Below, piece by piece: positions 16,994 to 50,920 of a stretch of 64,000 nucleotides of DNA. How positions within the stretch are numbered: the first letter of the stretch is position 1; each line of letters begins with the position of its first letter. Below the pieces are notes generated by a model. That model was not told where the DNA came from and did no database searches. It saw nothing but the letters and a program-made list of their open reading frames with translations. A program made the position numbers and the translations under genes. Source of the stretch: Cognatundibacterium aquatile (lineage in GTDB: Bacteria; Pseudomonadota; Gammaproteobacteria; Burkholderiales; Burkholderiaceae_D); contig NZ_JACOFT010000001.1 of NCBI RefSeq assembly GCF_014699135.1, positions 806,001 to 870,000 on the forward strand. Direction: 5' to 3'.

Positions 16994-17078
16994 AAAATAT
17001 ACTGGGGGGAGTATTTTTAAAAGCCTTTTAAATACAAAGACATTAGGCTGAAAATACAAGATACTCCCCCCGATTGAT
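16994..17078 (+). repeat. Dispersed G/C-tract repeat, copy 1
   Basis: The palindromic 16-mer ATACTGGGGGGAGTAT (16999-17014) is followed, with tract starts exactly 62 bp apart, by ATACTCCCCCC (17061-17071). A GACATTA core starts 35 bp after the first tract. The same spacing and core recur at 37256-37340 and 50845-50920. It occupies the gap between ubiC and the ribonuclease gene. I do not recognise it as a named element. Confidence 0.7.
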
Positions 17079-17116
17079 AAAAATACAGACGTAAAAATGA
17101 AGAAAAGAAGTCTTGC

Positions 17117-19225
17117 ATGAATTTATTTTTTGAAGAATCGGGCGATTTTAAAGCGGGCAGCATGATGTCGCAGGCAGGCGAGGCCTATCAGGTCGAACTG
17201 GCGAGCGGTAAACGCAGCAAAATCAAAGCCAAGGATGTGCTGTTGCAATTCGCGGCGCCTGATCCGGTCACGCTGATAGAGCAGGCACGCGCAGCCGCGG
17301 CAGATATTGACCTCGAATTTTTATGGGAAGTCGCTGGTCAGGAAGAGTTCGGCTTTGCTGAACTCGGCGCTGAATATTTTGGCCATGCACCGCAGCCAGT
17401 GGAAGCAGCCAGCCTGATTTTTGCATTGCATTCGGCACCGGTGTATTTCTACAAAAAAGGCCGTGGCCGTTACAAGGCTGCGCCGGAAGCATCACTGAAA
17501 GCCGCACTCGCCGGTATCGAAAAGAAAAAACAGCAATTGCTGATACAAGCTGGCTACGTGGAAGAGCTGAAGCAGCATCGTTTGCCGGAAACGATGAAAC
17601 CACTCGCTTTGCAGCTCCTGTTCAAGCCCGATAAAAACACGATCGAATACAAAGCGCTGGCAGAGGCTTGCGATGCACTGCAAATGTCGGCCTCACGCCT
17701 GATGCTGGCGACCGGTGGCATCCGCAGCCCGAAAGAGCTGCATCTGGCGAAATTTTATTTCGAGCATTTCCCCAAAGGTCTGGGCTTTCCGGCGATTACG
17801 ATACCGGCCTTACCGACCGATTTACCGGTCGCCGATGTACAGGCATTTTCTATCGATGACGTGACGACGACTGAAATTGACGATGCGTTTTCCGTCGTTG
17901 ATCTGGGTGACGGCAAGTTGCGCGTCGGTATCCACATTGCCGCACCGGCCTTAGGCGTGGCACGCGGCGACGCGATTGATCAGCTGGCGCGCGCGCGCAT
18001 GTCGACGGTGTATATGCCGGGCGACAAAATCACCATGTTGCCAGATGAGCTGGTTGATACCTACACGCTTGGTGCCGGGCAAACACGGCCAGCATTGTCG
18101 CTGTACGCGACGCTGGATACTGCCGACTGGGCCGTCATCAGTACGGAAACTAAAGTTGAAGCGGTACCGATGGCGTCGAATTTGCGGCATAACGATCTCG
18201 ATGCGCTGGTGACCGAAGAAAATCTGGCGAACGATGCGGGTGACTATCCGCATAAAGCCGAGATTGCGCAGATCTGGAAATGGGCGCTGGTGCTGGAACA
18301 GGGACGTATGGCGAAGCGTGAAAGTTTCGGCATGAAGCCGGAACAAACCAATCGCGTCGATTTCAATTTTTATGTCGAAGACGATGTCGTCAGTATTGTC
18401 CGTCGCAAACGCGGCGCACCGCTCGATAAGATGGTGGCGGAGCTGATGATTTTCGCTAACAGCACCTGGGGTAAATTGATGGCGGATCACGGCATCCCCG
18501 GCATTTATCGCGCGCAGGGCGTGGCGGGTGGCCGTGGTCAGGGCGGCTGGGCTGGCCGCATGCAAGTCCGTATGCTGACGCACGCGGCACCGCATCAGGG
18601 CTTGGGCGTGGATCAGTATGCATGGAGTACATCACCATTGCGCCGTTACACGGATCTGGTGAACCAGTGGCAGATCATCGCTTGCGTACAACACGGTGTG
18701 ACTGCGCCGCTGGTGGCACCGTTCAAACCGAAAGATGCCGATTTATTTGCGATCGTTTCCGGCTTTGATGCAGCGTATTCTGCGTACAACGATTTCCAGA
18801 CCAATATGGAACGTTACTGGTGCCTGCGTTGGCTGGAGCAGGAACAGGCGCGTCAGGTCGATGCGGTGGTGTTGAAAGACGAGATTCTGCGTCTGGTTGA
18901 GATTCCGCTGGTGATCCGCTTGCCAGGTATGCCGCAGACTGCGCGTGGCGCGCAAGTCCGACTCGATATTTTGCGTTGGGATGAAGTCGATCTCAGCGTT
19001 GAGGCGCGCATACTTGAAGTGCTGGGAACCGTGACAGAGATCGGTGAAGATGAAGTGCTCGAAGCTGAAATGGATGCCGAACTTGAAAATGCACTGGAAC
19101 ATGCGGTTGATGCATTGCCGGATGACGGTAGCGCTGCAAACGGCAATCAGGAAGCCGTGTCAGATGCAGACAGTAGTAGCAACAACAGCAGTGATAGTGA
19201 CAACATTCAGCCACAAGCCGAGTAA
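17117..19225 (+). CDS. RNase II-family (RNB domain) 3'-5' exoribonuclease
   Basis: A 702-residue processive RNA exonuclease. The RNB domain begins near residue 240 with FSIDDVTTTEIDDAFSV, the metal-binding Asp cluster. The central YMPGDKITMLPDEL and the catalytic-Arg motif STSPLRRYTDLVNQ near 510 are present. Aligned with E. coli RNase II, Asp201, 209 and 210 are kept but Asp207 is replaced by Glu253. The N-terminus is unlike the standard cold-shock domains and the C-terminus has an acidic Asp/Glu stretch and a Ser/Asn-rich tail. It is the first gene of a tightly packed operon; its stop overlaps the next ATG by 1 bp. Confidence 0.9.
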   Translation: MNLFFEESGDFKAGSMMSQAGEAYQVELASGKRSKIKAKDVLLQFAAPDPVTLIEQARAAAADIDLEFLWEVAGQEEFGFAELGAEYFGHAPQPVEAASLIFALHSAPVYFYKKGRGRYKAAPEASLKAALAGIEKKKQQLLIQAGYVEELKQHRLPETMKPLALQLLFKPDKNTIEYKALAEACDALQMSASRLMLATGGIRSPKELHLAKFYFEHFPKGLGFPAITIPALPTDLPVADVQAFSIDDVTTTEIDDAFSVVDLGDGKLRVGIHIAAPALGVARGDAIDQLARARMSTVYMPGDKITMLPDELVDTYTLGAGQTRPALSLYATLDTADWAVISTETKVEAVPMASNLRHNDLDALVTEENLANDAGDYPHKAEIAQIWKWALVLEQGRMAKRESFGMKPEQTNRVDFNFYVEDDVVSIVRRKRGAPLDKMVAELMIFANSTWGKLMADHGIPGIYRAQGVAGGRGQGGWAGRMQVRMLTHAAPHQGLGVDQYAWSTSPLRRYTDLVNQWQIIACVQHGVTAPLVAPFKPKDADLFAIVSGFDAAYSAYNDFQTNMERYWCLRWLEQEQARQVDAVVLKDEILRLVEIPLVIRLPGMPQTARGAQVRLDILRWDEVDLSVEARILEVLGTVTEIGEDEVLEAEMDAELENALEHAVDALPDDGSAANGNQEAVSDADSSSNNSSDSDNIQPQAE

Positions 19226-20154
19226 TGAATAGCGCGACAGAAAAGACAGATAGCATGCCCATGAAATCCGTGTTTGATAATTTGATACTCACGATTGCGG
19301 TTACCATTTCCGTGGTCGTTCATGCGGCATTGCTGCTGGTTCATTTCGTCGCACCTAAGCCTGCAGAAACGCAGGCCGCAGACCCCGGGCTGGAAGTGAT
19401 ACTGGTGAATTCCAAACACGACCGCAAGCCGTTGAAAGCAGATGCGCTGGCACAAGCCGATCTTGACGGCGGCGGTGCCCATGACAGCGGCCGCAGTAAA
19501 TCGCCGTTGCCGGATATGAACAGAAGCGAAGATGGCGACAATATCCGTACCGCCACCAAACGCATAGAAGAGCTGGAACAGCAGCAACAGCAATTGCTTG
19601 ATCAGGCTAAACGTAAAGAAAATTTCCGCTTGCCGCAGCAAGAAAAACGTCGCCTCGATGACAGCCGTACGCCGAATAAAGGCAGCGACGATCTCGATAC
19701 CAGCAAAGCGTTAGCCCGGATGGCAGCAGAGATTTCACAGACCATCGAAGATCAGAATAAACGTCCGCGTAAAACCTTCATCACACCCAGTACGCAAAAG
19801 GTTGGCTATGCGATGTATTACAAGGAATTGCAAAAGCGCATAGAAGATTTCGGCACCCTGAATTTCCCGCAAAAAGAAGGGAAGAAACTCTACGGTGAAT
19901 TGATTGTGTATATCCCGATTTTTCAGGATGGCACCATTTATGAAAAAGAAGGCGGCCCGCGCATAGAAAAATCGTCTGGCAATAAGGCGCTCGATAAAGC
20001 CGCATTGCGTATCGTGCGCAGTGCGGCACCGTTTGGCAAGTTCCCGCAAAACATGCGCTCGGACGATAAAGACGATTTATGGGTGGTCATCACCCGCTTC
20101 AAATTCACGCGTGATCAGCAGTTAGAAACAGAATTGCGCGGAGGTAAAAAATGA
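19225..20154 (+). CDS. TonB-family energy-transducer-like protein
   Basis: A 309-residue envelope protein. One transmembrane helix at about residues 22-45 follows a short cytoplasmic N-terminus. A charged Gln/Lys/Arg-rich coiled-coil-like linker (about 110-150, with a run of Gln) spans the periplasm. The C-terminal domain (210-309) has the TonB-like YGELIVYIPIFQDGTIYEKE and KAALRIVRSAAPF pattern. TonB proteins couple the proton-motive force to outer-membrane transport with ExbBD, but no exbBD or receptor lies here, so this may be a structural paralogue. Start and stop overlap both neighbours (TAATG and ATGA). Confidence 0.8.
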   Translation: MNSATEKTDSMPMKSVFDNLILTIAVTISVVVHAALLLVHFVAPKPAETQAADPGLEVILVNSKHDRKPLKADALAQADLDGGGAHDSGRSKSPLPDMNRSEDGDNIRTATKRIEELEQQQQQLLDQAKRKENFRLPQQEKRRLDDSRTPNKGSDDLDTSKALARMAAEISQTIEDQNKRPRKTFITPSTQKVGYAMYYKELQKRIEDFGTLNFPQKEGKKLYGELIVYIPIFQDGTIYEKEGGPRIEKSSGNKALDKAALRIVRSAAPFGKFPQNMRSDDKDDLWVVITRFKFTRDQQLETELRGGKK

Positions 20155-21005
20155 GTCACACCGCAACGCCAGATCGCTATGTCGTGATCGGCAATCCTGT
20201 TGCGCACAGCAAGTCGCCGTATATCCACGCAGCATTTGCAACGCAGACTGCCCAGGCGCTGGACTATCAGCGTTTGCTGGCACCGCTGGATGGCTTTGCT
20301 GCCAGTGTGCAGACGTTCCGGCAACAGGGTGGCAAAGGTGCGAACGTAACCGTGCCATTCAAGCTGGACGCCTGCGCATTGGCAACTGAATTAACGACCC
20401 GTGCCGCTGCCGCAGGTGCCGTCAATACTTTGCGCTTTGATGGCGAAAAAATTTTGGGTGACAACACGGACGGCATCGGACTGGTGACCGACATCGTGCG
20501 TAATGCAGGCGTATCTCTGCAGGGCAAGCGCGTTCTCTTGCTCGGTGCAGGTGGCGCGGCTCGCGGTAGCTTATTACCTTTGCTGGAGCAATTGCCGGCA
20601 GAACTGGTGATCGCCAACCGCACCTTATCGAAGGCGCATGAGCTGCAGCAACTGGCACAACAATATCTGCCTCAGATTCCGGTTTTTGCCCGGACTTTTA
20701 CCGATGTTGAAGGCCATTTCGATGTGATCATCAATGCGACTTCTGCCAGTTTGCATGACGATGTGCCGCCACTGGCGGGCAGCTTGTTTGATACCGGAAC
20801 GCTGGCTTACGATCTGATGTATGCCGCGCAGCCAACGGCATTTTTGCGTTTCGCAGCAGCGCACGGCGCGCAATGTCGCGATGGCCTTGGCATGTTGGTA
20901 GAGCAGGCGGCGGAAGCTTTTTTTATCTGGCGCGGAGTGCGGCCGGACACATTAACGGTGCTGGCTGATTTGCGACAAGCATTGAATGTCACTGCGGAGG
21001 CGTAA
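20151..21005 (+). CDS. aroE: Shikimate dehydrogenase
   Basis: A 284-residue NADP-dependent enzyme reducing 3-dehydroshikimate to shikimate. The N-terminal VIGNPVAHSKSPYIH shikimate site (residues 12-26), GANVTVPFK with catalytic Lys71, NTDGIG with Asp107 and the nucleotide-binding VLLLGAGGAARGSLLPLL near 126 are all present, with the NRT motif following (NADP preference). The ATG overlaps the TonB-like gene stop by 4 bp and the TAA overlaps mtgA's ATG. It acts one step after AroQ at 12608. Confidence 0.96.
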   Translation: MSHTATPDRYVVIGNPVAHSKSPYIHAAFATQTAQALDYQRLLAPLDGFAASVQTFRQQGGKGANVTVPFKLDACALATELTTRAAAAGAVNTLRFDGEKILGDNTDGIGLVTDIVRNAGVSLQGKRVLLLGAGGAARGSLLPLLEQLPAELVIANRTLSKAHELQQLAQQYLPQIPVFARTFTDVEGHFDVIINATSASLHDDVPPLAGSLFDTGTLAYDLMYAAQPTAFLRFAAAHGAQCRDGLGMLVEQAAEAFFIWRGVRPDTLTVLADLRQALNVTAEA

Positions 21006-21700
21006 TGAAATTATTCCGCCGATTGTTGTTCTGGCTGGTTGCGGTGCCGCTGTTGCTGGTGATTTTGCTGCAAGCGTATTTTCTGTTGCAGATTTGCTGG
21101 TGGATTAATTTCAATCCTTCTTCCACCAGTTTCATGCGCCAGCAACTCAGCGTGTTGCAGGAGAAAAATCCGGATGCGCAGTTACAGCATAAATGGGTGC
21201 CGTATAACCGCATTTCCACGCATCTGAAACGCGCGGTGATTGCCTCGGAAGATGATACTTTTGTGGATCATGAAGGTGTCGATTGGGAAGCCATGCAAAA
21301 GGCCTACGAAAAGAATCAGAAAAAGGGCAAGGTGGTTTCCGGCGGTTCCACGATCACGCAGCAACTCGCAAAAAATTTGTTCTTATCTGGTCAGCGTAGT
21401 TATCTGCGCAAAGGACAGGAGCTGGTCATTACTTACATGCTCGAAGCCTGCATGAGTAAGCGCCGGATATTAGAGATTTATCTGAATTCGGTCGAGTGGG
21501 GCGTTGGTGTATTTGGTGCCGAAGCAGCAGCCCAGCATTATTACCGCACCAGTGCGGCAAATCTGGGGGCAGCACAAGCGGCGCGTTTAGCGGTGATGCT
21601 GCCGAAGCCCCGTTACTTTGATAAAAATCAGGGGTCCGGCTATTTGCAGAGAAGGACTGAGTTAATTTTAAAACGTATGAATTACGCGGAGGTACCATGA
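21005..21700 (+). CDS. mtgA: Monofunctional peptidoglycan glycosyltransferase
   Basis: A 231-residue class of glycosyltransferase-51 enzyme that polymerises lipid II without a transpeptidase domain. One N-terminal membrane anchor at residues 8-34 is followed by the catalytic ASEDDTFVDHEGVDW (Glu82) and SGGSTITQQLAKNLFLS near 114, then KRRILEIYLNSVEWG near 155. The length is normal for MtgA and excludes a bifunctional penicillin-binding protein. The aroE-mtgA pair is conserved in Burkholderiales. Overlaps at both ends indicate coupled translation. Confidence 0.95.
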   Translation: MKLFRRLLFWLVAVPLLLVILLQAYFLLQICWWINFNPSSTSFMRQQLSVLQEKNPDAQLQHKWVPYNRISTHLKRAVIASEDDTFVDHEGVDWEAMQKAYEKNQKKGKVVSGGSTITQQLAKNLFLSGQRSYLRKGQELVITYMLEACMSKRRILEIYLNSVEWGVGVFGAEAAAQHYYRTSAANLGAAQAARLAVMLPKPRYFDKNQGSGYLQRRTELILKRMNYAEVP

Positions 21701-22158
21701 ATTTACAACGACAACGCGGTCTGAGTCTGATCTGGATTTCTGTTTTGTTTATGTTACTGGGCTTAGTATCGATGGGCTTTTTATACACGATACGTTACGG
21801 ACATTTACCGATGCAGGATGTCTGGTCGAAATGGGGGAAGTCGGCGAACGTGATTGGTAATGAATTGAAAAATGTTACGGGCATACAGGAACTTAGTTTA
21901 CCGGGTCAAAATAGCAGCGGTGTCCGCCAGGCCGCCACGGTTGAATCCGGTGTGCGTCGTTGTACCATCGATGGCAAAACCGTTTATTCAGATACCGCCT
22001 GTCTTGACAGTAATCCGACCAGTAAAAATATCAAGCTCAATGATGCTAAGGGATTCGTCAAACCTCCACCGCCGGTTGAGGAAGCGTCTGCCAGCAATGC
22101 GGAGCAAGACTTGCGATTGAAAGCATTGGAAAAAGCCTTGCAAAAGGCACAGCGCTGA
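21697..22158 (+). CDS. DUF4124-containing single-pass membrane protein
   Basis: A 153-residue protein of unknown function. A transmembrane helix spans about residues 8-31. Then comes a DUF4124-like segment around VRRCTIDGKTVYSDTACLDSN (about 86-108), which has the W/Y-x-D-x-x-C pattern and two Cys that may form a periplasmic disulfide. The C-terminal PPPPVEEAS and Lys/Ala/Leu helix look like a linker plus short coiled coil. It is the last gene of the ribonuclease-tonB-aroE-mtgA operon, overlapping mtgA by 4 bp. Confidence 0.78.
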   Translation: MNLQRQRGLSLIWISVLFMLLGLVSMGFLYTIRYGHLPMQDVWSKWGKSANVIGNELKNVTGIQELSLPGQNSSGVRQAATVESGVRRCTIDGKTVYSDTACLDSNPTSKNIKLNDAKGFVKPPPPVEEASASNAEQDLRLKALEKALQKAQR

Positions 22159-22205
22159 CCGTCGCCGCGCAAATGTAGAGCGCATATTTTTTATTGTTTG
22201 CGCGC

Positions 22206-22303
22206 TGTTCGCAGGATGTACGCGAACATAGAAATTTTAAGTCAGGCCGGGTCTTGCAGCAATTTACCGCAACTATAGCGATCAGTGCACTGCCCGCCCG
22301 GCC
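22206..22303 (+). promoter_or_regulatory. Two hairpins between DUF4124 gene and corA
   Basis: TGTTCGC (22206-22212) / GCGAACA (22222-22228) forms a 7-bp stem followed by an AT-rich stretch and may end the upstream operon. GGCCGGG (22245-22251) / CCCGGCC (22297-22303) encloses a 45-base loop directly before corA and could structure its leader. A magnesium-sensing role is conceivable but not shown. Confidence 0.3.
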
Positions 22304-22334
22304 CCACCCTTAGCAGGTTTTACCGGAATTGCCC

Positions 22335-23309
22335 ATGATTAATGTTTTCGTTTTACACAATGGACGGCTGAGTCAGATTAATATCGAAAATCGTGCCGAT
22401 CTCGAAAATACCTTGCCGGTGTGGGTCGATCTGACAGACCCGAATGAAGAAGAACGCGAGTGGGTCAAAAGTATCTACGGCGTGACTTTGCCGGGCGAAG
22501 ACGAAGTCAAAGATATTGAAGCGTCTGCACGTTATTACGAAGCTGATAGTGGTGATCTGCATTTACGCACCGATTTTCTGATCGATGAAAACGAAGACGA
22601 TGAGCCAGCACGCACGGTGACAGTCGCGTTTATTCTGGCGCGCGATATTCTCTTTTCTGTACACAATACCGATTTGCCGGTGTTCCGTCTGGTCCGCATG
22701 CGTGCCCGTTCACGCCCTGGTTCTATTAACGATTACAAAGATGTACTGCTGGATTTGTATGCGACCGATGCCGAGTATTCGGCGGATGCGCTGGAAGGTA
22801 TTTATCAAAATCTGGAAGATGTCAGCCGCGCTGTGCTGCAAAAAGATTTCAGCGATCAGGACGCCGCTGCGGCACTGAATTCGATCGCACAAGAGGAAGA
22901 TCTGAATGGTCGTATCCGCCGTAATATGATGGATACGCGCCGTGCAGTCAGTTTTCTGATGCGTGGCCGGTTGCTGAATGCAGATCAGTTTGAGGAAGCG
23001 CGCCAGATTTTGCGCGATATCGAATCCCTCGATGGTCACACCTCATTTCTGTTCGATAAAATCAACTTCCTGATGGATGCCACCGTTGGTTTTATCAATA
23101 TCAATCAGAATAAGATCATCAAGATATTCTCGGTCGCCAGTGTGGCTTTCCTGCCGCCGACGCTGATTGCCAGTATTTACGGCATGAACTTCAAAGGCTG
23201 GTTTCCGGAACTGGACTGGGAGCTTGGCTATCCATTCGCTCTGCTGCTGATGCTGGCATCAGCGATCACACCGTTCTGGTATTTCCGTCGTCGCGGCTGG
23301 TTAAAATAA
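22335..23309 (+). CDS. corA: CorA-family magnesium/cobalt transporter
   Basis: A 324-residue homopentameric divalent-cation channel of the inner membrane. The long N-terminal cytoplasmic domain is acidic. Two C-terminal helices flank the signature YGMNF (Gly283-Met284-Asn285), preceded by SVASVAFLPPTLIASI, and the protein ends with a basic RRRGWLK tail. I start at the ATG at 22335 (MINVFVLHNG), not the in-frame TTG two codons earlier. It stands alone after a 176-bp gap with possible leader hairpins and converges on the next gene. Confidence 0.94.
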   Translation: MINVFVLHNGRLSQINIENRADLENTLPVWVDLTDPNEEEREWVKSIYGVTLPGEDEVKDIEASARYYEADSGDLHLRTDFLIDENEDDEPARTVTVAFILARDILFSVHNTDLPVFRLVRMRARSRPGSINDYKDVLLDLYATDAEYSADALEGIYQNLEDVSRAVLQKDFSDQDAAAALNSIAQEEDLNGRIRRNMMDTRRAVSFLMRGRLLNADQFEEARQILRDIESLDGHTSFLFDKINFLMDATVGFININQNKIIKIFSVASVAFLPPTLIASIYGMNFKGWFPELDWELGYPFALLLMLASAITPFWYFRRRGWLK

Positions 23310-23397
23310 AAGCTGTGGTATAGCAGCGCAGCTCTGTCCTCTGAACGCGCATAGGCGGGATCAAAATATCACATCAATATCCGCTTCAGCATCGGGG

Positions 23398-24183
23398 TCA
23401 GGGCGGTGGCGTTTGCCACCGTTGTTCTATCTTTGCGTACGTTCCGTTTGCCCTGATCGTAACCAAGCCACTGTCGAGTAACTGTGCGTAGCGGGCGGCA
23501 CCCGGCCAGGACTTTGAAAAGCTGACAAACAGCTTGTCTTCCAGCGCAACACCGACCTGCTTAATTTTCCCCTGAAATTCTTGCGGATGAGTGACGCGGA
23601 GGTGATCGGCAACTCTGGTATAGACCAGTGAATAATCCGACCTTCCGCGTAATAATTTACGTAAATTTGACAGGTCAGACGGTGCGGTTTCCCGGATTAT
23701 TCCAGCATCATTCTCGATGTCGCTGCCGTAGGTATAACCGTGGGTGACGCCAACCTGATGTCCGCGTAGATCCAGTCTGGTTATGGCTGGCAGCTTATCG
23801 TTTTCTCTGGCATAAATTCCGATGACAGCTTTGAATATGGGCTCTTTGTGAAAGATAAACAGCGACGCAAGTTTGGCATCTTGCAAGCTGTCGAAGCAGC
23901 CGAGTGCTTGACCAGTTTGTGCCAGCATCAGGCAACGTGAATAGGGCGCCGATGTAAATTTGACCTGAATACCAGCAGCGGCATACGCGGCTTCAATGAT
24001 GTCGGCGGCAAAGCCGCGAATCCTGCCATCTTTTAGCCCGGAGTATGGGTACCAGTCATCCTCACCAATCAATGTGATCGTTTCAGCCCTCGCAGTCGCC
24101 AGGCTGTTGCCAGTGATAAAAACGAACAACAGCAGCAAACGCAAAAAACGCACAGTGATGTTGCTTGTACTACGGATCGTCAT
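23398..24183 (-). CDS. Periplasmic solute-binding protein, SBP family 3 (orphan)
   Basis: A 261-residue secreted protein. The N-terminal hydrophobic stretch (residues 11-33) ending ATARA is a signal peptide. The mature part has the family-3 start ITLIGEDDWYPYSGLKDGRIRGFAADI and a central LRGHQVGVTHGYTYGSD, then a C-terminal FSKSWPGAARYAQLLDSGL. Such proteins bind amino acids for ABC importers or act as sensors. No permease or ATPase is nearby, so it is an orphan and the ligand is unknown. It converges with corA. Confidence 0.82.
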   Translation of the reverse strand: MTIRSTSNITVRFLRLLLLFVFITGNSLATARAETITLIGEDDWYPYSGLKDGRIRGFAADIIEAAYAAAGIQVKFTSAPYSRCLMLAQTGQALGCFDSLQDAKLASLFIFHKEPIFKAVIGIYARENDKLPAITRLDLRGHQVGVTHGYTYGSDIENDAGIIRETAPSDLSNLRKLLRGRSDYSLVYTRVADHLRVTHPQEFQGKIKQVGVALEDKLFVSFSKSWPGAARYAQLLDSGLVTIRANGTYAKIEQRWQTPPP

Positions 24184-24400
24184 GCAGATATGGTTGGAGA
24201 TAAATATTGATCGCTATTGATCATCATATTGACGTATTTTGACGGAATTACATAGACCTGATTTTCACTTTTCCTGCTCTCTGCATTTTTTCACAATTCA
24301 AAGCGTCGATGGTCGATGTCGTTTGCGTCTTAAGTAGTGACGATCATGGCGTCCGTAAGTTATTTTGAGAGATGACGCATGCTGTTACACCAGAAAAAAA

Positions 24401-24439
24401 GAAAACCCACGGCAGATTAGTCCTGATACGCGGGTTTTC
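24401..24439 (-). terminator. Intrinsic terminator after the chemoreceptor gene
   Basis: On the minus strand GAAAACCC (24439-24432) pairs with GGGTTTTC (24408-24401) and is followed by a T7 run. It lies just downstream of the chemoreceptor stop at 24455. Confidence 0.6.
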
Positions 24440-24454
24440 CAGGGGAGGCGGTGC

Positions 24455-37255: not shown

Positions 37256-37340
37256 GCATACTCCCCCCATATTTTTCAATAATGCAGCTAATGTCAGCGT
37301 ATTTGCTGAGCTGTTTTAGATACTGGGGGGAGTATATTTT
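37256..37340 (-). repeat. Dispersed G/C-tract repeat, copy 2
   Basis: On the plus strand ATACTCCCCCC (37258-37268) is followed by ATACTGGGGGGAGTAT (37320-37335), identical to the 16-mer at 16999. Read on the minus strand, tract starts are 62 bp apart and GACATTA starts 35 bp in, exactly as in copy 1. It lies between the divergent uppP and orphan gene at 37551. Confidence 0.7.
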
Positions 37341-42005: not shown

Positions 42006-42302
42006 GGATCGCCTCCTTTTTTGGGGATAAGACGGACTGGGCGGATATTGTTCTGCGGAACGCGTTAACAGCATTCTCTGAATTTGCGCGTGTTGGCTTG
42101 CGACCGTGAATTCTTTTCATACTTGCTTAGACATCCAATGATTAATGAGCCAGAGTGCGATGGCGTTGCGCTTGGTAGAACGGCTAATACCCGCATGCAG
42201 GTGATGCCGTCAATTCATCATTTTAAGTGCAGATTTTGGCATTTTGTCGCATTTGCCTGGTTTTGCCGCTGTCTTTCTTGCATGATGCGCAGGAATCGCT
42301 GC

Positions 42303-42331
42303 TTGACGCTACCTGGACGGCGGATTACATT
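42303..42331 (+). promoter_or_regulatory. Candidate promoter of the TetR gene at 42452
   Basis: TTGACG (42303-42308) and TACATT (42326-42331) are separated by 17 bp, predicting a start near 42338 and a leader of about 110 bases. A palindrome starts a few bases downstream. Confidence 0.45.
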
Positions 42332-42343
42332 ACTGACTCATGG

Positions 42344-42362
42344 GTAAGTTATTTATACTTAC
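42344..42362. promoter_or_regulatory. Palindrome, candidate TetR autoregulatory operator
   Basis: GTAAGT (42344-42349) and ACTTAC (42357-42362) are perfect arms around TATTTAT. The site would lie at about +6 to +24 of the predicted transcript, a typical repressor position. Confidence 0.4.
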
Positions 42363-42451
42363 AAAGGCAGTGTGCATCAATCAATGGTTGTTATGTTTGT
42401 ATATGACCTGACGGTGCGTACTGTGTTGAGATTCAGTGAAAAGTTATCGTT

Positions 42452-43090: not shown

Positions 43091-43264
43091 ATGTGGCTTG
43101 GCTGACGCGCCAATGGTGACTCTGGTGATTTATACCTGTTGAATGATTCCGGCGTCTGCTTAAACAGAAAATGGCGTACTGAAAAGACATTAAATATCGT
43201 TGAATACCGGAATCAAACCGGCATACAGAGCAGTGCTTTGATAAAATGCGGGTTCCTTTAATTT

Positions 43265-43933
43265 ATGCAATCGAGTGAACAAATGAATATCGAAAAAGCC
43301 CGTTTCAACATGATTGAACAACAAATACGTCCTTGGAACGTGTTGGATAAGGATATTTTGGATATGTTGATTGTGGTGAAGCGGGAAAACTATTTTCCGC
43401 AAGACCAGAAAACACTGGCTTTCTTTGACACAGAGTTGCCATTGCCGGACGGCTCTAAAGCAATGAGTCCTAAACTGGAGGCGCGCATTGTTCAGGAACT
43501 GGGCCTTAAAAAACAGGAGTCTGTGCTGCTGATCGGCGCTGCATCCGGGTATCTGGCGGCTTTGCTGTCTTCTATGTCCAGCCACGTGACTGTGTTGGAA
43601 ACATCGTTGGTGCTGAAAGAACTTGCTGAAAAAAATCTGGCGGCAGATGGCGTACGGAATGTCAGCGTTTTACTGGCAGACGGATTGTCCGGTCAGCATA
43701 CAGGTTCGTATGATGTGATCGTGGTTGCCGGCGCCGTGGAATCGGTTCCTGAAACATTGAAAAAACAATTGAATATCGGCGGTCGTTTGCTGGCAATTGT
43801 TGGCCGCTTGCCGGTCATGCACGCAGAACTGATCACCCGCTCTGCTGATGCCGCATACGACACTCGCATTGTGTTTGATACGGTGGTTGCGGCAGCACCG
43901 GGCGCCGTACCTTCCTCACAATTCAAATTCTGA
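43265..43933 (+). CDS. Protein-L-isoaspartate O-methyltransferase-like protein
   Basis: A 222-residue SAM-dependent methyltransferase of the Pcm family that repairs isoaspartyl residues. NMIEQQIRPWNVLDKDILDML near residue 14 and the SAM-site VLLIGAASGYLAALLSSMS near 80 match, with GAVESVPETLKKQL near 157. The usual Pcm motif E-I-G-T-G-S-G-Y is altered to L-I-G-A-A-S-G-Y, as in many betaproteobacterial copies next to tolC. Activity is therefore likely but less certain. Start ATG 43265 or 43283. A rhodanese gene follows 24 bp later. Confidence 0.8.
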   Translation: MQSSEQMNIEKARFNMIEQQIRPWNVLDKDILDMLIVVKRENYFPQDQKTLAFFDTELPLPDGSKAMSPKLEARIVQELGLKKQESVLLIGAASGYLAALLSSMSSHVTVLETSLVLKELAEKNLAADGVRNVSVLLADGLSGQHTGSYDVIVVAGAVESVPETLKKQLNIGGRLLAIVGRLPVMHAELITRSADAAYDTRIVFDTVVAAAPGAVPSSQFKF

Positions 43934-43957
43934 TCTGTTAGTCAAAATAGAAAACGT

Positions 43958-44281
43958 ATGCAACACATCACCGCACAAGAACTAGCGCAATGGCTGACTG
44001 ATAGCAGTAAAAAATCTCCGCTTTTACTCGATGTCCGGGAACCCGGCGAGTATGAAACTTGTCATATTGAGGGCGCACAGCTGATGCCTATGCAGACAGT
44101 TCCTGCGCGCTTGAATGAGCTGGATGAGGATGCGACGATTGTTTGTATTTGTCATCACGGTGGTCGCAGTATGCAAGTCGCTCATTTCCTCGAACACCGG
44201 GGATACAGCAAAGTGATTAACCTGACTGGTGGTGTGCATGCGTGGGCACAGCAAGTCGATCCGGCTATGCCGACCTATTAA
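43958..44281 (+). CDS. Rhodanese-domain protein
   Basis: A single-domain sulfurtransferase-like protein of 107 residues. LLLDVREPGEYETCHIEGA near residue 22 and the active-site loop CHHGGRS (catalytic Cys65, six-residue loop as in thiosulfate-type rhodaneses) are present, ending with LTGGVHAWAQQVDP. It probably handles persulfide sulfur in the cytoplasm; no donor or acceptor is evident. It sits between pcm and tolC, an order common in Burkholderiales, and has no signal peptide. Confidence 0.9.
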   Translation: MQHITAQELAQWLTDSSKKSPLLLDVREPGEYETCHIEGAQLMPMQTVPARLNELDEDATIVCICHHGGRSMQVAHFLEHRGYSKVINLTGGVHAWAQQVDPAMPTY

Positions 44282-44304
44282 CTAACTTTTATTCGGAGTG
44301 TTTC

Positions 44305-45627
44305 ATGCGTAATCCAGTTGTTGCTGCACTGCTTGCAAGTGCTTTCCTGTCGCTGAGTGCGAATGCTACTGATTTGCTGCAAATTTATCAGGATGCTCTG
44401 GCGAATGACCCTCAATATGCGAGCGCCCGTTCCTCGCTGACGGCTGGTCAGGAAAAGTCAGTTCAGGGACGCGCTGGTTTGCTGCCAACGATAGGTCTGA
44501 ACGGAAGTGATACCCGTTCACGTGTCGAATCACAACCAGATATTGCGAATGCGGATCGCAATTTTACGACCTTCTCGAATACCTGGTCGCTTGCCTTGTC
44601 GCAGCCTTTGTTCCGCTGGGCGAACTGGCAACAATACGAACAAGGTAAATTGTCTGTCGTGATCAGCGAAGCGCAGTTTGCTCAGGCAAAACAGGATTTG
44701 ATCGTACGTGTCGGTCAGGCCTATTTCGATGTGCTCGCCGCGCAAGATACGCTGGCAACATTGCAGGCGCAAAAAGTGGCGATCTCAGAACAACTGGCAT
44801 CAGCGAAACGCAACTTTGAAGTCGGTACTTCAACCATTACCGATACGCATGAAGCACAGGCGCGTTACGACCTGGCAACGGCACAGGAATTCGCTGCGCA
44901 AAGTGATCTGCAGGTCAAGCGTTCCGCCTTACAGCAAATCATTGGTAAGGAAGCGGGTGAACTGGCGACACTGAAAGCCGGTGTAAAACTGAATTCACCT
45001 CAGCCAGCAGCGGTGAATGAGTGGGTCAGCTCCGCTGAAAAACAAAACTTCAATGTTGTCGCCTCCGAAGTTGCAGTTGAAGTCGCGAAACGTGAAATTG
45101 AAAGAAACCGCGCCGGACATTATCCTACGCTGGATCTGGTGGCGAGTACCGGCCGTACCGCAACAGGTGGTGCTTCTTCGACTGGCACCGGCGTTGTGAA
45201 ACCGACGACGATCGGTGTGCAATGGAGCATTCCATTATTTGCCGGTTTTGCGGTTGACAGCAAAGTCAAAGAAGCCGTTGCCTTGCAAGAAAAAGCCCGC
45301 AACGATCTGGAGACAAATCGTCGCAGCGCAGCGCAAGGCGCGCGTCAGGCTTACACCGGCGTGACCAGCGGTCTGGCACAGGTTAAAGCATATGAGGCAG
45401 CAGAAATTTCCAGTCAGTCTGCGTTGGATTCAAATAAACTCGGTTATCAGGTTGGTGTCCGCATCAATATCGATGTGCTGAATGCGCAACAACAGTTGTA
45501 TACCACTCGTCAGAATCTGGCGAAAGCACGTTACGACACCATCATGAATGGTCTGCGTCTGAAGTCGGCAGCGGGTACATTGAAAGAAGAAGATTTATCT
45601 GAAGTGAATACTTTGTTGCAGCGCTAA
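44305..45627 (+). CDS. tolC: TolC-family outer-membrane efflux protein
   Basis: A 440-residue outer-membrane channel tunnel. The N-terminal MRNPVVAALLASAFLSLSANA is a signal peptide. The mature part begins TDLLQIYQDALANDPQYASAR, typical of TolC, and has two repeated long coiled-coil halves (about 150-215 and 345-415) with VGQAYFDVLAAQDTLATLQAQ and TRQNLAKARYDTIMNGLRLKSAAGTL. I start at ATG 44305, which has GGAG eight bases before it; an upstream extension into the rhodanese gene is rejected. It is followed by a terminator and then an ABC exporter operon that probably uses this channel. Confidence 0.94.
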   Translation: MRNPVVAALLASAFLSLSANATDLLQIYQDALANDPQYASARSSLTAGQEKSVQGRAGLLPTIGLNGSDTRSRVESQPDIANADRNFTTFSNTWSLALSQPLFRWANWQQYEQGKLSVVISEAQFAQAKQDLIVRVGQAYFDVLAAQDTLATLQAQKVAISEQLASAKRNFEVGTSTITDTHEAQARYDLATAQEFAAQSDLQVKRSALQQIIGKEAGELATLKAGVKLNSPQPAAVNEWVSSAEKQNFNVVASEVAVEVAKREIERNRAGHYPTLDLVASTGRTATGGASSTGTGVVKPTTIGVQWSIPLFAGFAVDSKVKEAVALQEKARNDLETNRRSAAQGARQAYTGVTSGLAQVKAYEAAEISSQSALDSNKLGYQVGVRINIDVLNAQQQLYTTRQNLAKARYDTIMNGLRLKSAAGTLKEEDLSEVNTLLQR

Positions 45628-45670
45628 AAACAAAAAGCAAGTCGATTCCAGGACAACAGTCCGACAACAA

Positions 45671-45697
45671 AAAAGCCCGCTGAATGCGGGCTTTTTT
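45671..45697 (+). terminator. Intrinsic terminator after tolC
   Basis: AAAAGCCCGC (45671-45680) and GCGGGCTTTT (45686-45695) form a 10-bp stem around TGAAT, followed by more T. It separates tolC from the downstream exporter operon. Confidence 0.9.
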
Positions 45698-45835
45698 GAT
45701 TTTGATCATGCCAGTTTGTTGCATATCAATTTGTACTTTAGCGCAGAGTGAACACTGACGTATCATAGGTGCTGATCGCTGGTACACAGATGTTGTCGTC
45801 CAGCCTGGCTACCGATTTACTTATGAAAGTCATTT

Positions 45836-47074
45836 ATGGCGTTGTCCGGGTTTTTGAATAAGCGTTGGCTGCTACCAGTCTTTGTTCTGGCCGGATTGAT
45901 CTTGCTGTCAGGCTTGATTTTTTCGTCCTCGCTGTTTGGTCCCCGGTTGGAGGTCTTTACTTTGCAACGCGGTGAATTAGTACAAACCGTGGTTGCCAGC
46001 GGCAGGGTGGCGACACCTGCAAGAGTGGATGTCGGTACACAAATTACCGGGCGCGTTGCTGCTGTTCCCGTCAAAGAAGGGCAGACTGTGCGAGCAGGAG
46101 AGCTGTTGATAGAGCTGGCTGCTGCCGACGAAAAAGCAGCGCTGGAGCTGGCGCAGGCGAATGTCCGGCAAGCCGAGGCCAGACTCAGGCAGTTGCAACA
46201 ACTGACGCAGCCGACCGCGGAGCAAGTGCTGGTACAGGCACAGGCCAATCTGATTAACGTCGATAAGCAATATCAGCGCACCCGCGAGCTGGTTGCGCAG
46301 GGTTTTGTCGGTAAGGCGCAGCTCGATGAGGCGCAGCGCGCGCTCGATGTTGCGCGAAGTCAGTTAAAGAGTGCGCAATTCCAGCTGCAATCGAGTAAGC
46401 CCGACGGCAGCGATTATCAACTCGCTGTTGCCGGATTACAGCAGGCGAAAGCGAATCTGGCGGCAGCGCAGGCCAAACTTGAGCACACCAGAATCACGGC
46501 GGTAGTGGATGGCGTCCTGATTGCCAGAGACGTAGAGCGTGGCGATATCGTGCAGCCGGGCAAAATCCTGATGGTGTTATCGCCCGCAGGAATCAGCCAG
46601 TTAGTGGTGCAGATAGATGAAAAGAATCTGCGTTACATCCGTATGGGGCAGTCTGCCTTCGGCGTGACTGATGCCTATCCCGGGCAGAAATTTCCGGTAC
46701 AAGTCGCGTATATTAACCCCGGCGTTGACGCGCAGAGGGGATCAGTGAACGTCAAATTGAACGTATTAAAACCACCGCTGTTTCTGACGCAGGATATGAC
46801 GGTATCGGTGGAGATAGAAGTCGCCAGAAGTCAGAATGCTTTATCGCTGAATGTAGAAGCGATCCGTGATGCGAGTACGCTGCATCCGTGGGTGATGGCT
46901 GTGGTGGATGGCCGCGCAGCCCGGCGTCCGGTGACGATAGGCATACGCGGCGATAAAAGCGTGGAAATTGCTTCCGGGCTGAATCAGCATGACGTCGTAT
47001 TGCCAGCGACAAATATGACGGTCGAGGCGGGGCAGCGGGTACGTCCTGTCGTCACGAAAAATCCGCAGCCATGA
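45836..47074 (+). CDS. MacA/HlyD-type periplasmic adaptor protein
   Basis: A 412-residue membrane-fusion protein. One N-terminal helix (about 10-32) anchors it in the inner membrane. A lipoyl-like hairpin half begins VASGRVATPARVDVGTQITGRV near 55, a long alpha-hairpin with Ala/Gln/Leu heptads covers about 95-210, and the second lipoyl half and beta-barrel follow (GVLIARDVERGDIVQPG near 222). It should bridge the ABC permease to an outer-membrane channel such as the nearby TolC. The stop overlaps the next gene by 4 bp. The exported substrate is unknown. Confidence 0.9.
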   Translation: MALSGFLNKRWLLPVFVLAGLILLSGLIFSSSLFGPRLEVFTLQRGELVQTVVASGRVATPARVDVGTQITGRVAAVPVKEGQTVRAGELLIELAAADEKAALELAQANVRQAEARLRQLQQLTQPTAEQVLVQAQANLINVDKQYQRTRELVAQGFVGKAQLDEAQRALDVARSQLKSAQFQLQSSKPDGSDYQLAVAGLQQAKANLAAAQAKLEHTRITAVVDGVLIARDVERGDIVQPGKILMVLSPAGISQLVVQIDEKNLRYIRMGQSAFGVTDAYPGQKFPVQVAYINPGVDAQRGSVNVKLNVLKPPLFLTQDMTVSVEIEVARSQNALSLNVEAIRDASTLHPWVMAVVDGRAARRPVTIGIRGDKSVEIASGLNQHDVVLPATNMTVEAGQRVRPVVTKNPQP

Positions 47075-48300
47075 ATAGCTGGCTTCCTTTTGAGTGGATA
47101 GTCGCCACCCGTTTTTTGCGGGAGGGGCGCATGCAATCTCTGTTTATTATTCTCGGGGTTGCTATCGGTGTCGGCGTGATCGTGTTTATGTCGGCCTTAC
47201 TGGCAGGCTTGCAGGCCAATTTATTTCGCCGCGTGCTGAGTTCGCAGCCGCATATCACGCTCGAAAGACCGAAGCAGCAGGCGACCCCGGTATTGCTTGC
47301 CGCACCGGGACAGCAGATCGTGACGACGATACAAAAACCGTCGCAGCGCGTGAATACCATCGACCAGTGGCAAAAAATCCGCGATCAGGTCGAGGCTCGC
47401 AACGACGTTGTGACCGTCTCGCCTACCACAACCGGACCGGCACTGGTGGTGCGCGGCAGCGCCACGCAATCGGTGTCAGTGATCGGCATTTTGCCCGAGC
47501 AATACAACAAGATCGTGCCGCTCTCAGAAAAAATAACCGCTGGTGTTTTTCGCCTGACGAATACCGACGTCATGATAGGCACGCAACTGGCGGAAGACAT
47601 GGGCGTTGGGCTCGGTGATAAATTACGCCTCAATTCAGCAGCAGGCACCAGTCTGATCTTGAATATCGTCGGCATTTTTGATCTGGGTAGCCGCGCTGCC
47701 AATCAGCGTAACGTGTATGTGCTGTTGTCGACCGCACAGAATTTATTGAATATGGTCGGTGGCGTGTCGAGCATAGAATTAACGGTGCATGATCCCTACA
47801 GCGCAGAGGATATTGCGCAATCTATTGCCAACAGTACGGGGCTTAACGCGCTGAGCTGGATTACCACCAACAGCCAGTTTTTCCTGGCGATGCGGGCGCA
47901 GACTTATTCCAGTTTATTGATCCGTCTTTTCGTTGCGCTGTCGGTGGCAGCGGGGATCGCCAGTGTGCTGGTGGTGTCGGTTGTGCAGCGGCAAAAAGAC
48001 ATAGGCATCCTGCGGGCGATGGGCGGCAGCCGCGGGCAGGTGCGTCGGATATTCCTGATACAAGGTGCGCTGGTTGGTTTAGCGGGATCTGTGATCGGCT
48101 CTATGATGGCGGTTGGCTTACTGGCGATGTGGAAAATCGTTGCCAGAAATCCGGATGGAACGCCCATGTTTGTGATTAATGTCGATTGGCAGTTCTTTGT
48201 CTGGAGCGCATTGCTGGCGATGCTGGCCGGTGTGCTTGCTGCGGCGACCCCGGCGGTGCGTGCCGCGCGACTTGATCCTGTGGTGGCGATCCGTGGCTGA
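47071..48300 (+). CDS. MacB/FtsX-type ABC exporter permease
   Basis: A 409-residue permease with the MacB topology: TM1 near 25-47, a large periplasmic domain (about 50-280) and three C-terminal helices (about 290-310, 335-360, 375-400). [33 protein letters not shown] near 308 is the FtsX-family coupling motif. Unlike E. coli MacB, the ATPase is a separate gene, giving a DevBCA-like three-gene order. Its stop overlaps the GTG of the ATPase gene. Confidence 0.9.
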
Positions 48301-48994
48301 TACTGTCCTCCTTCTTAAACAAGTCTGTAAATCGTATGCTGTCGGTACGCCGGCAGAAACGCAGGTGTTGTTTGATATCGATTTACACCTGCAGCAGGGC
48401 GAGTTTGCCGCGTTGATCGGACCTTCAGGTTCCGGTAAAAGCACCTTGCTCAATATCATAGGCTTACTGGATCGTCCCAGTGGCGGGCAACTGATTATGA
48501 CCGGGCAGGATACCGGCAATCTTGATGAGGCGCGGCTGACGCAGTTACGCGGGCAGGCGATCGGCTTTGTTTTTCAGTCGCATTATTTGCTCACTGCGTT
48601 CAGCGCGACAGAAAACGTGATGATGCCTATGCTGATGCAGAATGGTCGTCCGGATGATCGTATGCGCGAACGGGCACAGCATTTGTTAGCTGAAGTGGGC
48701 TTGAGGCAATGGCAGGATAGTCTGGTGGGAAATATGTCTGGTGGTCAGCAACAAAGGGTGGCGATCGCGCGGGCGCTGGCACTGAATCCGCCGTTGATAC
48801 TCGCAGATGAGCCTACCGGTAATCTCGACACCAAATCCACTGACGCTATTTTTGAGTTGATGCGTAAAGTGAATGCCGATCAACACACCACGTTTCTGAT
48901 GGTGACGCACAATATGGAGTTGGCAGAACGTTGTGATCGTACGATAGAGTTGGTCGACGGAAGAATCGCTCCGCCGATTTCTTCCGTGACTTAA
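48293..48994 (+). CDS. ABC exporter ATP-binding protein (MacB/LolD-type)
   Basis: A 233-residue ATPase that powers the exporter. Walker [10 protein letters not shown] is near residue 42, signature [15 protein letters not shown] near 146 and Walker [16 protein letters not shown] near 168, followed by the His switch TFLMVTHN. The DEPTGNLD form is typical of the LolD/MacB class. The start is a GTG that overlaps the permease stop by 8 bp; a longer upstream frame is not homologous. It ends the adaptor-permease-ATPase operon. Confidence 0.92.
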
Positions 48995-49045
48995 ACGTAA
49001 GACCGGCTCTGTTGATTTTGCTGATTCAGTTGGTTCAGATAGGAC

Positions 49046-49357
49046 TCAGCTGAACCAGTTTCTGACATTGAGACCGATAAAATGTCCGAAGACGACGATG
49101 AGCATGAATGGCACCAGAGCAACGCAGGCCTGCGCAATGACTTTCCAGAGTAACCACAACTGACGGGAAATCAATGGTGTGACCGCCCATACGCACGTCA
49201 GGTAGACCAGCACCAGCGAGCACATGAACAGTATCAATAAAAAACCTTCGGGGCGGTACGGTGCAGCAATCGCAATAATGGCGCTCCAGGCAATCCACGC
49301 AGAGAGTGCCGACACCATGATTCTGTGAGCAAATTCCATGACAGGTAATGACCTCAT
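49046..49357 (-). CDS. Small uncharacterised four-helix membrane protein
   Basis: I do not recognise a family. The 103-residue product has about four hydrophobic helices (10-32, 38-58, 60-66 to about 80 and 82-100), with almost no loops. AAPYRPEGFLLILFMCSLVLVYL is its central part. The ATG at 49357 has AAGGAA upstream. It is alone on the minus strand between the exporter ATPase gene (convergent) and a nucleosidase gene 76 bp away on the same strand. Confidence 0.65.
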   Translation of the reverse strand: MRSLPVMEFAHRIMVSALSAWIAWSAIIAIAAPYRPEGFLLILFMCSLVLVYLTCVWAVTPLISRQLWLLWKVIAQACVALVPFMLIVVFGHFIGLNVRNWFS

Positions 49358-49433
49358 CGGATGATTTCCTTCTGCGTAAGTGTGCCGGAGAATTAGCTCT
49401 CCCCGGCCTGAACTGTCTTGCCAGGGAAGTGCT

Positions 49434-50033
49434 TTATTCGTTTGTCTGCAAATGATTGATCAATTGATGCAAACCCGCAGTCATTGCTTGCACTGAACCG
49501 AGCATATCCCATTGATCGTCGCCGATTTTAACGTAATTTGAGACTGACCGGAGTTCCAGAAATTTCTGCTTTTCCAGTTGGCAGATATGGAAAAAAGCGG
49601 CACCTTCCATATTCTCGATATCACATTTGCTGTTGTCGATAAACGGCGCCATGGCTGCATTGACGGAAATACCATGTGCCAGCGGAAAGGGTTGTCCGAC
49701 GGGGATGTGTTCGCAGTGCAAGGTGTGACGGCGTTCAAATTCCATCTCTATCGGCAGATGCGCCATGTGGACAAAACCTGTCGGTGTGAAAAATCCGAGG
49801 TCGGCTTCTACTTCACTTTCTACCAGCACAACATCGCCGATCTTGAAACGTGAATGAGGGAATACGCCAGCAATGCCGGACAAAATCAGCATGTCCGGGC
49901 GGTGCTCATGTATCGCTTTGACGGTCGCATACGTGGTTGCCGTCAGGCCGACGCCGGAAACAATACTGATCACGTCATTACGTTGAAACAGGCTGGCTTC
50001 GGTTTGAGTAGGAAACAGAACAATGATCTTCAT
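49434..50033 (-). CDS. Nucleoside phosphorylase/nucleosidase-family protein (futalosine hydrolase-like)
   Basis: A 199-residue PNP/UDP-fold protein. GVGLTATTYATVKAIHEHRPDMLILSGIAGVFP near residue 27 gives the family N-terminal pattern, KIGDVVLVESEVEADLGFF the metal-free base site and IENMEGAAFFHICQLE the conserved Met-Glu ribose contact, with an ELRSVSNYV close. It resembles futalosine or methylthioadenosine nucleosidases, but no menaquinone genes are near, so the substrate is open. I begin at MKIIVLFP (50033). That start has no Shine-Dalgarno; the preceding bases are pyrimidine-rich. A longer start at 50096 is possible. Confidence 0.75.
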   Translation of the reverse strand: MKIIVLFPTQTEASLFQRNDVISIVSGVGLTATTYATVKAIHEHRPDMLILSGIAGVFPHSRFKIGDVVLVESEVEADLGFFTPTGFVHMAHLPIEMEFERRHTLHCEHIPVGQPFPLAHGISVNAAMAPFIDNSKCDIENMEGAAFFHICQLEKQKFLELRSVSNYVKIGDDQWDMLGSVQAMTAGLHQLINHLQTNE

Positions 50034-50251
50034 AGGAGGAGAGTCGGATTCAAGGGGAAAGGGTGTAAGGTATTGCGTATCCTTATCGGCTGCCATGTCG
50101 CAAATCAACAAAATGCTGTAAACCTTTTTCTTTGCAGCGCGTTATAAGGAGTACAGGCATTTTCAACTAAACCGCATCGAAATAGCATGACGATGCTCGT
50201 CTGGTTGCCATTCATTTCGCTGACAGCAGCAGAGACAATTTAAGAGCTTAT

Positions 50252-50758
50252 ATGAAAAAAATCATTTTATTCGCGGCGCTTGCGTCCTCATTGCTGAGTG
50301 TTGAGTCGGCGTCAGCGCAGAATGTTAATTTATCGGTGCAATTTGGTCAGCCGGGTTTTTACGGGCAACTGGATGTCGGTAATTTTCCGCAGCCGCAATT
50401 AATTTATCGCGAACCCCGCATCGTTTATCGCAGCCCCGCGCCATTGCCGCCGCTGTATCTGGTTGTGCCTCCCGGTCATCGCAAACATTGGGATAAGCAT
50501 TGTTCACGTTATGACGCTTGTGGCCGGCCGGTTTATTTTGTGACCGAGAATTGGTATAACACTCAGGTGGTGCCTCGCTATCGTGACGGTCAATATCGTG
50601 AACCACACCGCGACTATAACAACGGACCAAACCGAGGTTACGATGGCCGCGATGACAGAGATAATCGCGAACACGGTCGCGGTAAAGATAATGACCGTGG
50701 TCAGGGAAATGGGCGTGGCCACGATAATGGGCACGGCAGAGGGCAGCATAACGATTAA
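50252..50758 (+). CDS. Secreted protein with His/Asp/Arg/Gly-rich tail
   Basis: A 168-residue exported protein of unknown function. The signal peptide MKKIILFAALASSLLSVESASA should be cut before QNVNLS. The core (about 25-105) has a Pro-rich YREPRIVYRSPAPLPPLYLVVPPGH and two Cys (CSRYDACGRPVYF) that may pair. The last 60 residues are almost wholly Asp, Arg, Gly, Asn and His and look disordered, with possible metal binding. Similar short secreted proteins are common in Burkholderiales. No neighbouring gene suggests a partner. Confidence 0.78.
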   Translation: MKKIILFAALASSLLSVESASAQNVNLSVQFGQPGFYGQLDVGNFPQPQLIYREPRIVYRSPAPLPPLYLVVPPGHRKHWDKHCSRYDACGRPVYFVTENWYNTQVVPRYRDGQYREPHRDYNNGPNRGYDGRDDRDNREHGRGKDNDRGQGNGRGHDNGHGRGQHND

Positions 50759-50834
50759 TCTGCCAGTGGCTGGCGAACGATGTCTGTCGCGGTTTTAGCG
50801 CAGGCATTGTGCCCGGGCATTCCGGAATGGCTAC

Positions 50835-50876
50835 AGGCGGTCTGAATATACTCCCGGGGGTATATTCAGACCGCCT
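50835..50876. terminator. Long palindrome, possible terminator fused to the G/C-tract repeat
   Basis: AGGCGGTCTGAATATAC (50835-50851) and its complement at 50860-50876 flank TCCCGGGG, and pairing can continue through CCC/GGG. The plus strand continues TTTGTTTA, weakly T-rich, so it may terminate the gene ending at 50758. Confidence 0.45.
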
Positions 50877-50920
50877 TTGTTTATAAGGACATCTGGCATG
50901 TTTTGGCTGATACTCCCCTG
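50845..50920 (+). repeat. Dispersed G/C-tract repeat, copy 3
   Basis: AATATACTCCCGGGGG starts at 50845; its tract starts at 50853 and the second tract (ATACTCCCC) starts at 50915, again 62 bp later. GACAT lies at 50888-50892, 35 bp in. The first tract is here a CCC/GGGGG palindrome inside a longer inverted repeat. Confidence 0.6.

Follow-up and report, generated by a model that had tools for sequence, protein, structure and literature searches.

A dispersed Undibacterium repeat that resembles tandem CsoR/RcnR operators, and a CsoR-like protein as its candidate partner

The closest described relatives of the DNA element considered here are the operators of the CsoR/RcnR (DUF156) family. In the portions of the sources drawn on here, the type 1 operator is a single G/C tract of 3-8 with AT-rich inverted repeats 6-9 bp apart (PMC3902906), and E. 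coli RcnR has two TACT-G6-N-AGTA sites (PMC3902906; also PMC7055735). The operators identified there are three in S. lividans and two sites for E. coli RcnR (PMC3902906). Two groups of short dispersed repeats also invite comparison, namely the REP/BIME repeats, which bind IHF, gyrase and Pol I (PMC2817692), and the Correia repeat enclosed elements, which are reported to be mobilised and to have inverted-repeat ends and can bind IHF (PMC2649163). Here, we focus on a dispersed repeat built around an ATACT/AGTAT inverted repeat (dyad) in a 3.9-Mb Undibacterium genome (labelled G000), three copies of which lie in a stretch of 64,000 nucleotides (the window; G000:C1:806001-870000), and on a member of the CsoR/RcnR family encoded in that genome, called MADTPPLK after its first residues, as its candidate partner.

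The sequence confirms the three copies at the places given by the first-pass annotation (16994-17078, 37256-37340 and 50845-50920). In window coordinates, their features are as follows.

16995..17075, plus strand: element copy 1, of type N, located some 20 nt past the stop of the open reading frame (ORF) at 16349-16969; orthologues in U. rivi and U. griseum
16999..17014, plus strand: full dyad of copy 1, ATACT-GGGGGG-AGTAT (ATACTGGGGGGAGTAT), from a pattern search (G000:C1:822999-823014)
17061..17071, plus strand: right half-site of copy 1, ATACTCCCCCC, at offset +62, from a reading of the sequence
37256..37340, minus strand: element copy 2, type I (inverted right half-site), in a divergent gap
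37320..37335, minus strand: full dyad of copy 2, ATACT-CCCCCC-AGTAT in element orientation (G000:C1:843320-843335)
37258..37268, minus strand: right half-site of copy 2, GGGGGGAGTAT, whose AGTAT, at +73, is the opposite arm in a shared register
50844..50924, plus strand: element copy 3, of type N, for which two gene-call runs disagree on the orientation of the flanking genes
50848..50863, plus strand: dyad of copy 3, ATACT-CCCGGG-GGTAT (ATACTCCCGGGGGTAT), with one arm base changed, from a reading of the sequence and comparison with U. rivi
50910..50918, plus strand: right half-site of copy 3, ATACTCCCC, at offset +62, from a reading of the sequence

A second tract 62 bp from the first had been claimed for all three copies. 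This holds for copies 1 and 3, where it starts at 17061 and 50910 and is preceded by GACAT at 17039 and 50888, respectively. Copy 2 has instead its AGTAT at +73 (62+11), the opposite arm of a site that shares the register. The co-directional setting described for copy 1 and the divergent one for copy 2 stand, while the convergent setting of copy 3 is unsettled, as the gene calls disagree. Copies 2 and 3 also have orthologues in U. rivi, and probable ones in U. griseum through single-flank placement. A near-perfect extended dyad of about 40 nt (50838-50878) encloses the dyad of copy 3; its U. rivi orthologue is changed at several positions in both arms with pairing kept, and the probable U. griseum orthologue (L087) is, by eye, without the extension.

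The repeat family is real and exceeds 100 copies in G000. The pattern ATACTSSSSN{0,3}AGTAT gave 118 forward and 126 reverse matches (a single dyad can score on both strands) against 0 and 0 for the reversed control, and the paired pattern gave 54 against 0, which bears out the expectation of a count above chance. A sequence profile, R1, was made from the 87 of 94 available reference copies that were aligned. It matched at least 150 times each in G000, G028 and G021, 131 times in G030 and 117 times in G013, counts in which a dyad may have been matched on both strands. The source copies of R1 were found by patterns that fix a spacing of about 54-72 bp; a contiguous 464-kb stretch of G000, with 21 copies and one weak match, served as the check free of such a spacing window.

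The layout of the element is a full dyad (AAAT-ATACT-N6-AGTAT-WTTT), a spacer, and then a single arm belonging to a second site. In the spacer, an A or T tract accompanies a conserved central block (typically GCCCTTTATTTATAAGGA[C/G]AT in the G000 clade); the GACAT proposed as a core varies between copies, with GAGAT, GAGAAT and the like also occurring. Directly before the right half-site, the A/T tract switches between AAAA and TTTT from copy to copy, as if strand were irrelevant. The arm of the second site is found in a direct form, ATACTCCCC at +62/63 (115 copies, counting those at 61 and 64), and in an inverted form, GGGGAGTAT with AGTAT at +73/74 (26 copies), which are the two arms of one register. 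Among these 141 classified copies, a set from several species with orthologues kept in and with 7 more copies unclassified (mostly reverse-strand matches), the direct offsets are 62 (84), 63 (26), 61 (2) and 64 (3) and the inverted offsets 73 (14) and 74 (12). Conservation of the spacing is confirmed in the 464-kb stretch, where 13 exact dyads, each found on both strands, were paired with partners up to 220 bp away without any narrower spacing window: all 12 partners lie in register, 7/7 direct ones at +62/63 and 5/5 inverted ones at +73/74. In every offset set the second site is in register, yet has one arm only.

The centre of the dyad is more variable than this geometry. It is all G/C in 38/47 G000 copies (in a sample that the query biases towards G6), and the G000 clade has the type 1 operator sequence, ATACT-S6/7-AGTAT. 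The G/C tract is typical of that clade only; many copies in other Undibacterium are mixed-centred, and 34 copies read there have the same layout with mixed centres and a spacing of 62-65 bp. The tract may run either way (G6, C6) or be mixed, as is expected of a symmetric double-strand site. Left G6 tends to occur together with right C4, both in the biased G000 sample (27/3 vs 3/7) and, by a hand tally, in the contiguous 464 kb (6/2 vs 1/6, p=0.04).

Like the type 1 and tandem operators of CsoR/RcnR proteins, the elements have a six-bp G/C tract within TACT/AGTA arms. Those operators come as two sites per control region, and here a family member of the same genome has the dyad in its own leader. 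Unlike them, the elements are present in more than 100 dispersed copies, mostly outside promoters, their second site is one arm at a fixed 62-63 bp, and the centre of 6-7 bp is often non-G/C in other species. No account of the element family was found in a literature search conducted mostly at title level, with subscription journals largely outside it.

The PF02583 proteins of Undibacterium are of two main types, FrmR-like and MADTPPLK-starting. The MADTPPLK gene of G000 lies at C1:55195-55434 and its product scores 58.5 bits against a curated cut-off of 22.8. Its scores are far under the cut-offs for RcnR, FrmR and RicR, from which it differs in this respect, no NCBIfam equivalog came above cut-off (for a query with one residue mistyped), and its sequence relatives in the PDB include CsoR and InrS chains. 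The metal ligands of Cu-sensing CsoR are Cys-His-Cys. In this the MADTPPLK type is unlike the Cu sensor, since the Cys alone is conserved (11/12 rows) and the His and second Cys differ in the 4adz alignment. No metal exporter was seen by eye among the ORFs neighbouring the gene, where no family search was made; the neighbours at L262 and L264 resemble, again by eye, a MASE1-type membrane sensor and a family-3 solute-binding protein.

The leaders of these genes match the elements. An ATACT/AGTAT inverted repeat lies at most 125 bp upstream in 24/24 MADTPPLK-type genes read in Undibacterium, 15 of them exact with a 6-bp centre (CAGTAG, CAGTAC, CCGTAG, CGGTAG, GGGTAG and the like); in 5 the arms are exact around a 7-bp centre, and in the other 4 one or two arm bases differ. 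Because the first codons are usually ATGGCAGATACTCCCCC, an exact ATACTCCC arm follows the leader dyad in 17/24, at 73 bp in 10 (G000 among them), 72 in 2 and 74 in 1, and at 59, 59, 61 and 71 bp in the remaining four. The 73-bp spacing (62+11) is one helical turn longer than that of the elements. The arm stands at 72-74 bp in 13/16 genomes with at least 15 element matches and in 0/8 with fewer. Among 20 starts compared, the arm codons are ACT in 17 (18% in the genome) and CCC in 18 (11%), counts that are not independent as the species are related. In the FrmR-like genes, where read, the arms of the leader dyad come in reversed order.

The elements also follow the gene from genome to genome. 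The MADTPPLK type is present in 26/43 genus genomes (24 genes read, G063 and G066 from PF02583 matches alone). At least 15 R1 matches occur in 16/26 genomes with the gene and in 0/17 without (p=2e-5, phylogeny ignored), and any match at all in 24/26 and 1/17, respectively. High-scoring FrmR-type genes, set by a score of at least 80 bits where the sequence was not read, are tracked more weakly (8/13 with vs 8/30 without), and G021, with its 150 or more matches, has no FrmR-type match in an assembly 94% complete. With the reversed arms, this led us to reject FrmR as the binder. Beyond the genus, the metagenome-assembled genome (MAG) CTSoil_111 represents a second genus and carries a MADSSLK gene, ATACC-N6-AGTAT upstream of it, 138 distinct places in 2.4 Mb among the matches listed (149 rows), and a spacing of 62-64 bp (33 rows, 31 distinct, 2 without a scored arm). 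The spread is otherwise narrow. The strict pattern matched 2/399 genomes order-wide, both Undibacterium, and R1, searched family-wide with the best 20 candidates per genome, matched in 14/195 genomes and 3/44 genera. Relatives with the pattern, among the matches listed, are U. rivi, U. griseum, U. oligocarboniphilum, U. hunanense and some MAGs; single pattern matches in UBA6018 and a Massilia MAG look like chance (0 and 1 R1 matches).

Judged from these comparisons, the elements are likely to be dispersed tandem operators of the same-genome MADTPPLK protein. The resemblance to CsoR/RcnR operators was raised in the first-pass annotation and then set aside there; the leader dyad and the co-occurrence strengthen it. 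Each copy would combine a full type-1-like dyad with a single arm from another site, 62-63 bp off on the same helical face, with the protein encoded at C1:55195-55434 as the probable binder and as a putative controller of its own leader. A tetramer may dock on the full dyad and then capture the weaker arm with the DNA bent or wrapped. Wrapping of DNA has reportedly been observed for E. coli RcnR.

Several observations weigh against this assignment. In the portion of the source consulted, a CsoR half-site alone did not bind (PMC3902906), so the right arm would need cooperation. The G000 leader has the centre CGGTAG rather than G6 and a spacing of 73 rather than 62, and across the leaders the exact ATACTCCC arm is absent in 7/24 and at 59, 61 or 71 bp in four. 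Ten gene-bearing genus genomes, eight of them of 5.9-6.7 Mb, have 0-4 matches, so that the gene is not sufficient; conversely, G062 carries one R1 match without it. The MADTPPLK-type gene of G003 is just 51% identical to the G000 protein, and UBA6018 has a relative without dyad or elements. The co-occurrence statistics ignore phylogeny, and the match counts are lower bounds at 150 or more and can score one dyad twice. Finally, four genomes of a third genus (L375-L378; G456, G491, G512, G529) have 12-15 R1 matches each among the best 20 candidates, with any csoR-like partner there hypothetical.

Gene contexts rest on ORFs and our own crude gene caller, the background gaps coming from an earlier version of it. 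Forty of the 47 G000 copies were classed (7 at locus edges were not), and 24 lie in co-directional, 14 in convergent and 2 in divergent gaps, as compared with 169, 25 and 41 in the background. Convergent gaps are thus in excess (14/40 vs 25/235, p=2e-4) and divergent ones few (2/40 vs 41/235, p=0.06). A stop codon is at most 60 nt away in 24/38 copies with a stop on one side, 6/26 copies with a start on one side lie 33-59 bp before the start codon, and none of the 40 classed copies reaches more than 30 bp into a called gene. Most dispersed copies are therefore not in the promoter of a regulated gene, and the suggestion that they cannot all be promoter operators finds support in their preference for convergent gaps and stop codons.

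As to age, all 19 compared G000 copies are orthologous in U. rivi (92.2% overall identity). U. griseum, at 77.6% identity, yielded 10 copies, and each has a G000 counterpart at the same position and on the same strand, with two placed through one flank alone. These are 10 of the 14 placeable G000 copies and include all three of the window; the gaps of the other four are too diverged to reveal an empty site. A weak G000 match (680550) was omitted from both comparisons and copy 877559 is unplaceable in U. griseum. In 28 orthologous pairs, drawn from detected copies (in the contiguous stretch 19/19 were found in both species), identity is kept in the arms (98-99%), centre (96%), central block (94-96%) and right arm (97.6%), but falls to 87-90% in the remaining spacer, 84-87% downstream and 75-78% in the upstream flanks. 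The element family is old, constrained and clade-limited.

One rival explanation is a selfish repeat of the REP/BIME kind, or akin to miniature inverted-repeat transposable elements (MITEs), that a transposase spread long ago, the leader match being a captured promoter fragment rather than a sign of present binding. The elements resemble REP/BIME repeats as high-copy (more than 100 dyads per genome), extragenic palindromes, on the 40 classed copies, with a bias to gene ends as in REPs (PMC2817692, in the part consulted); that they share binding as well is a prediction from sequence. Moreover, their right ends are often GGCAGATACTCCCC, like the csoR-like gene start ATGGCAGATACTCCCC. They differ in having no linked RAYT, no covarying hairpin shown, and a presence tied to the CsoR-like gene. 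Y1_Tnp matches are found in 42/43 genus genomes and are unrelated to element load, and the Y1_Tnp loci of G000 (3.3 kb), U. rivi and U. griseum hold no element copy; G021 has one weak copy (E 8e-4) near its Y1_Tnp gene. A RAYT/REP link is accordingly not supported. The G000 locus (L202, C13:258127-258405) has a Y1_Tnp/RAYT-like ORF of 239 aa that adjoins a glutamate synthase-like ORF, as it does in U. rivi and G021. Neither MITE-like ends nor target duplications nor an empty site were seen, and sites are stable, though the four missing in U. griseum are too diverged to exclude old insertions; arms are constrained and flanks free, and viral contigs gave 0 copies by the strict pattern. Correia repeats are likewise short and dispersed and, through IHF, can bind a DNA-architectural protein; the elements differ from them in being orthologous, with no ends or duplications seen. 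Given the orthologous sites, the earlier label of mobile-like is not supported for recent time. On balance, we regard a selfish origin as unlikely. A 1197-bp segment at G000 C1 about 506748-507944 and 582317-583513, which matches at 97% across both places between G000 and U. rivi, is probably an insertion sequence.

A second rival, slightly more doubtful still, is an ordinary large regulon in which a CsoR-like repressor or activator controls the promoter beside each copy. It is consistent with the class of the dyad, with a regulator that has the dyad in its own leader and with the six copies just before start codons. The excess of convergent and the paucity of divergent gaps argue against it.

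The last rival, a 3' UTR (untranslated region) stem-loop, terminator or small RNA, is very improbable, since an Rfam scan of the window gave one tRNA only and no match at the elements, RNAalifold found 0 covarying pairs in 87 copies with invariant arms, central-dyad pairing is not above shuffles (z -0.6 in G000, or 2.0 when slid by +1; z -1.1 in CTSoil), copies occur in both orientations to genes and the half-site flips orientation in register. What speaks for it is the proximity to stop codons, the compensatory differences between the extended dyad of copy 3 and its U. rivi orthologue, the left G6/right C4 trend, and a mild excess of left-stem pairing at offsets 3-4 (z 2.0 and 3.0), which is otherwise not above shuffles. 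The arms of the central dyad also differ together between species by eye (GTCCA/TGGAC, GCCA/TGGC), which may be a species-level change of a second binding site. Neither scan, alignment nor shuffles of the outer stem and central dyad gave clear support, and the earlier suggestion of an RNA element is not upheld.

We return, then, to operators of the MADTPPLK protein. Since most copies lie close to a 3' end and many in convergent gaps, we would expect the complex to serve as an insulator, road-block or nucleoid-architecture site and not as a classical repressor. The likeliest function appears to be that of an architectural site or insulator close to gene ends, and the architectural part of the earlier reading is plausible. 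More tentatively, and with somewhat less than even confidence, we propose that a CsoR/RcnR sensor has turned into a nucleoid-architecture or insulator protein, that its tandem operator has multiplied to more than 100 3'-end elements, and that element and protein have been kept or lost together in at least two, perhaps three, Burkholderiaceae genera.

In the part of the literature consulted, CsoR-family proteins are reported as sensors with few operators (PMC3902906). If the reading is true, a family member with more than 100 conserved, phased double sites near gene ends would reveal a new way in which a switch for a single gene can come to organise DNA across a whole genome. Genomes with the gene yet almost no elements, and genomes with neither, provide natural controls, and a dispersed-repeat family would gain a named, testable protein partner.

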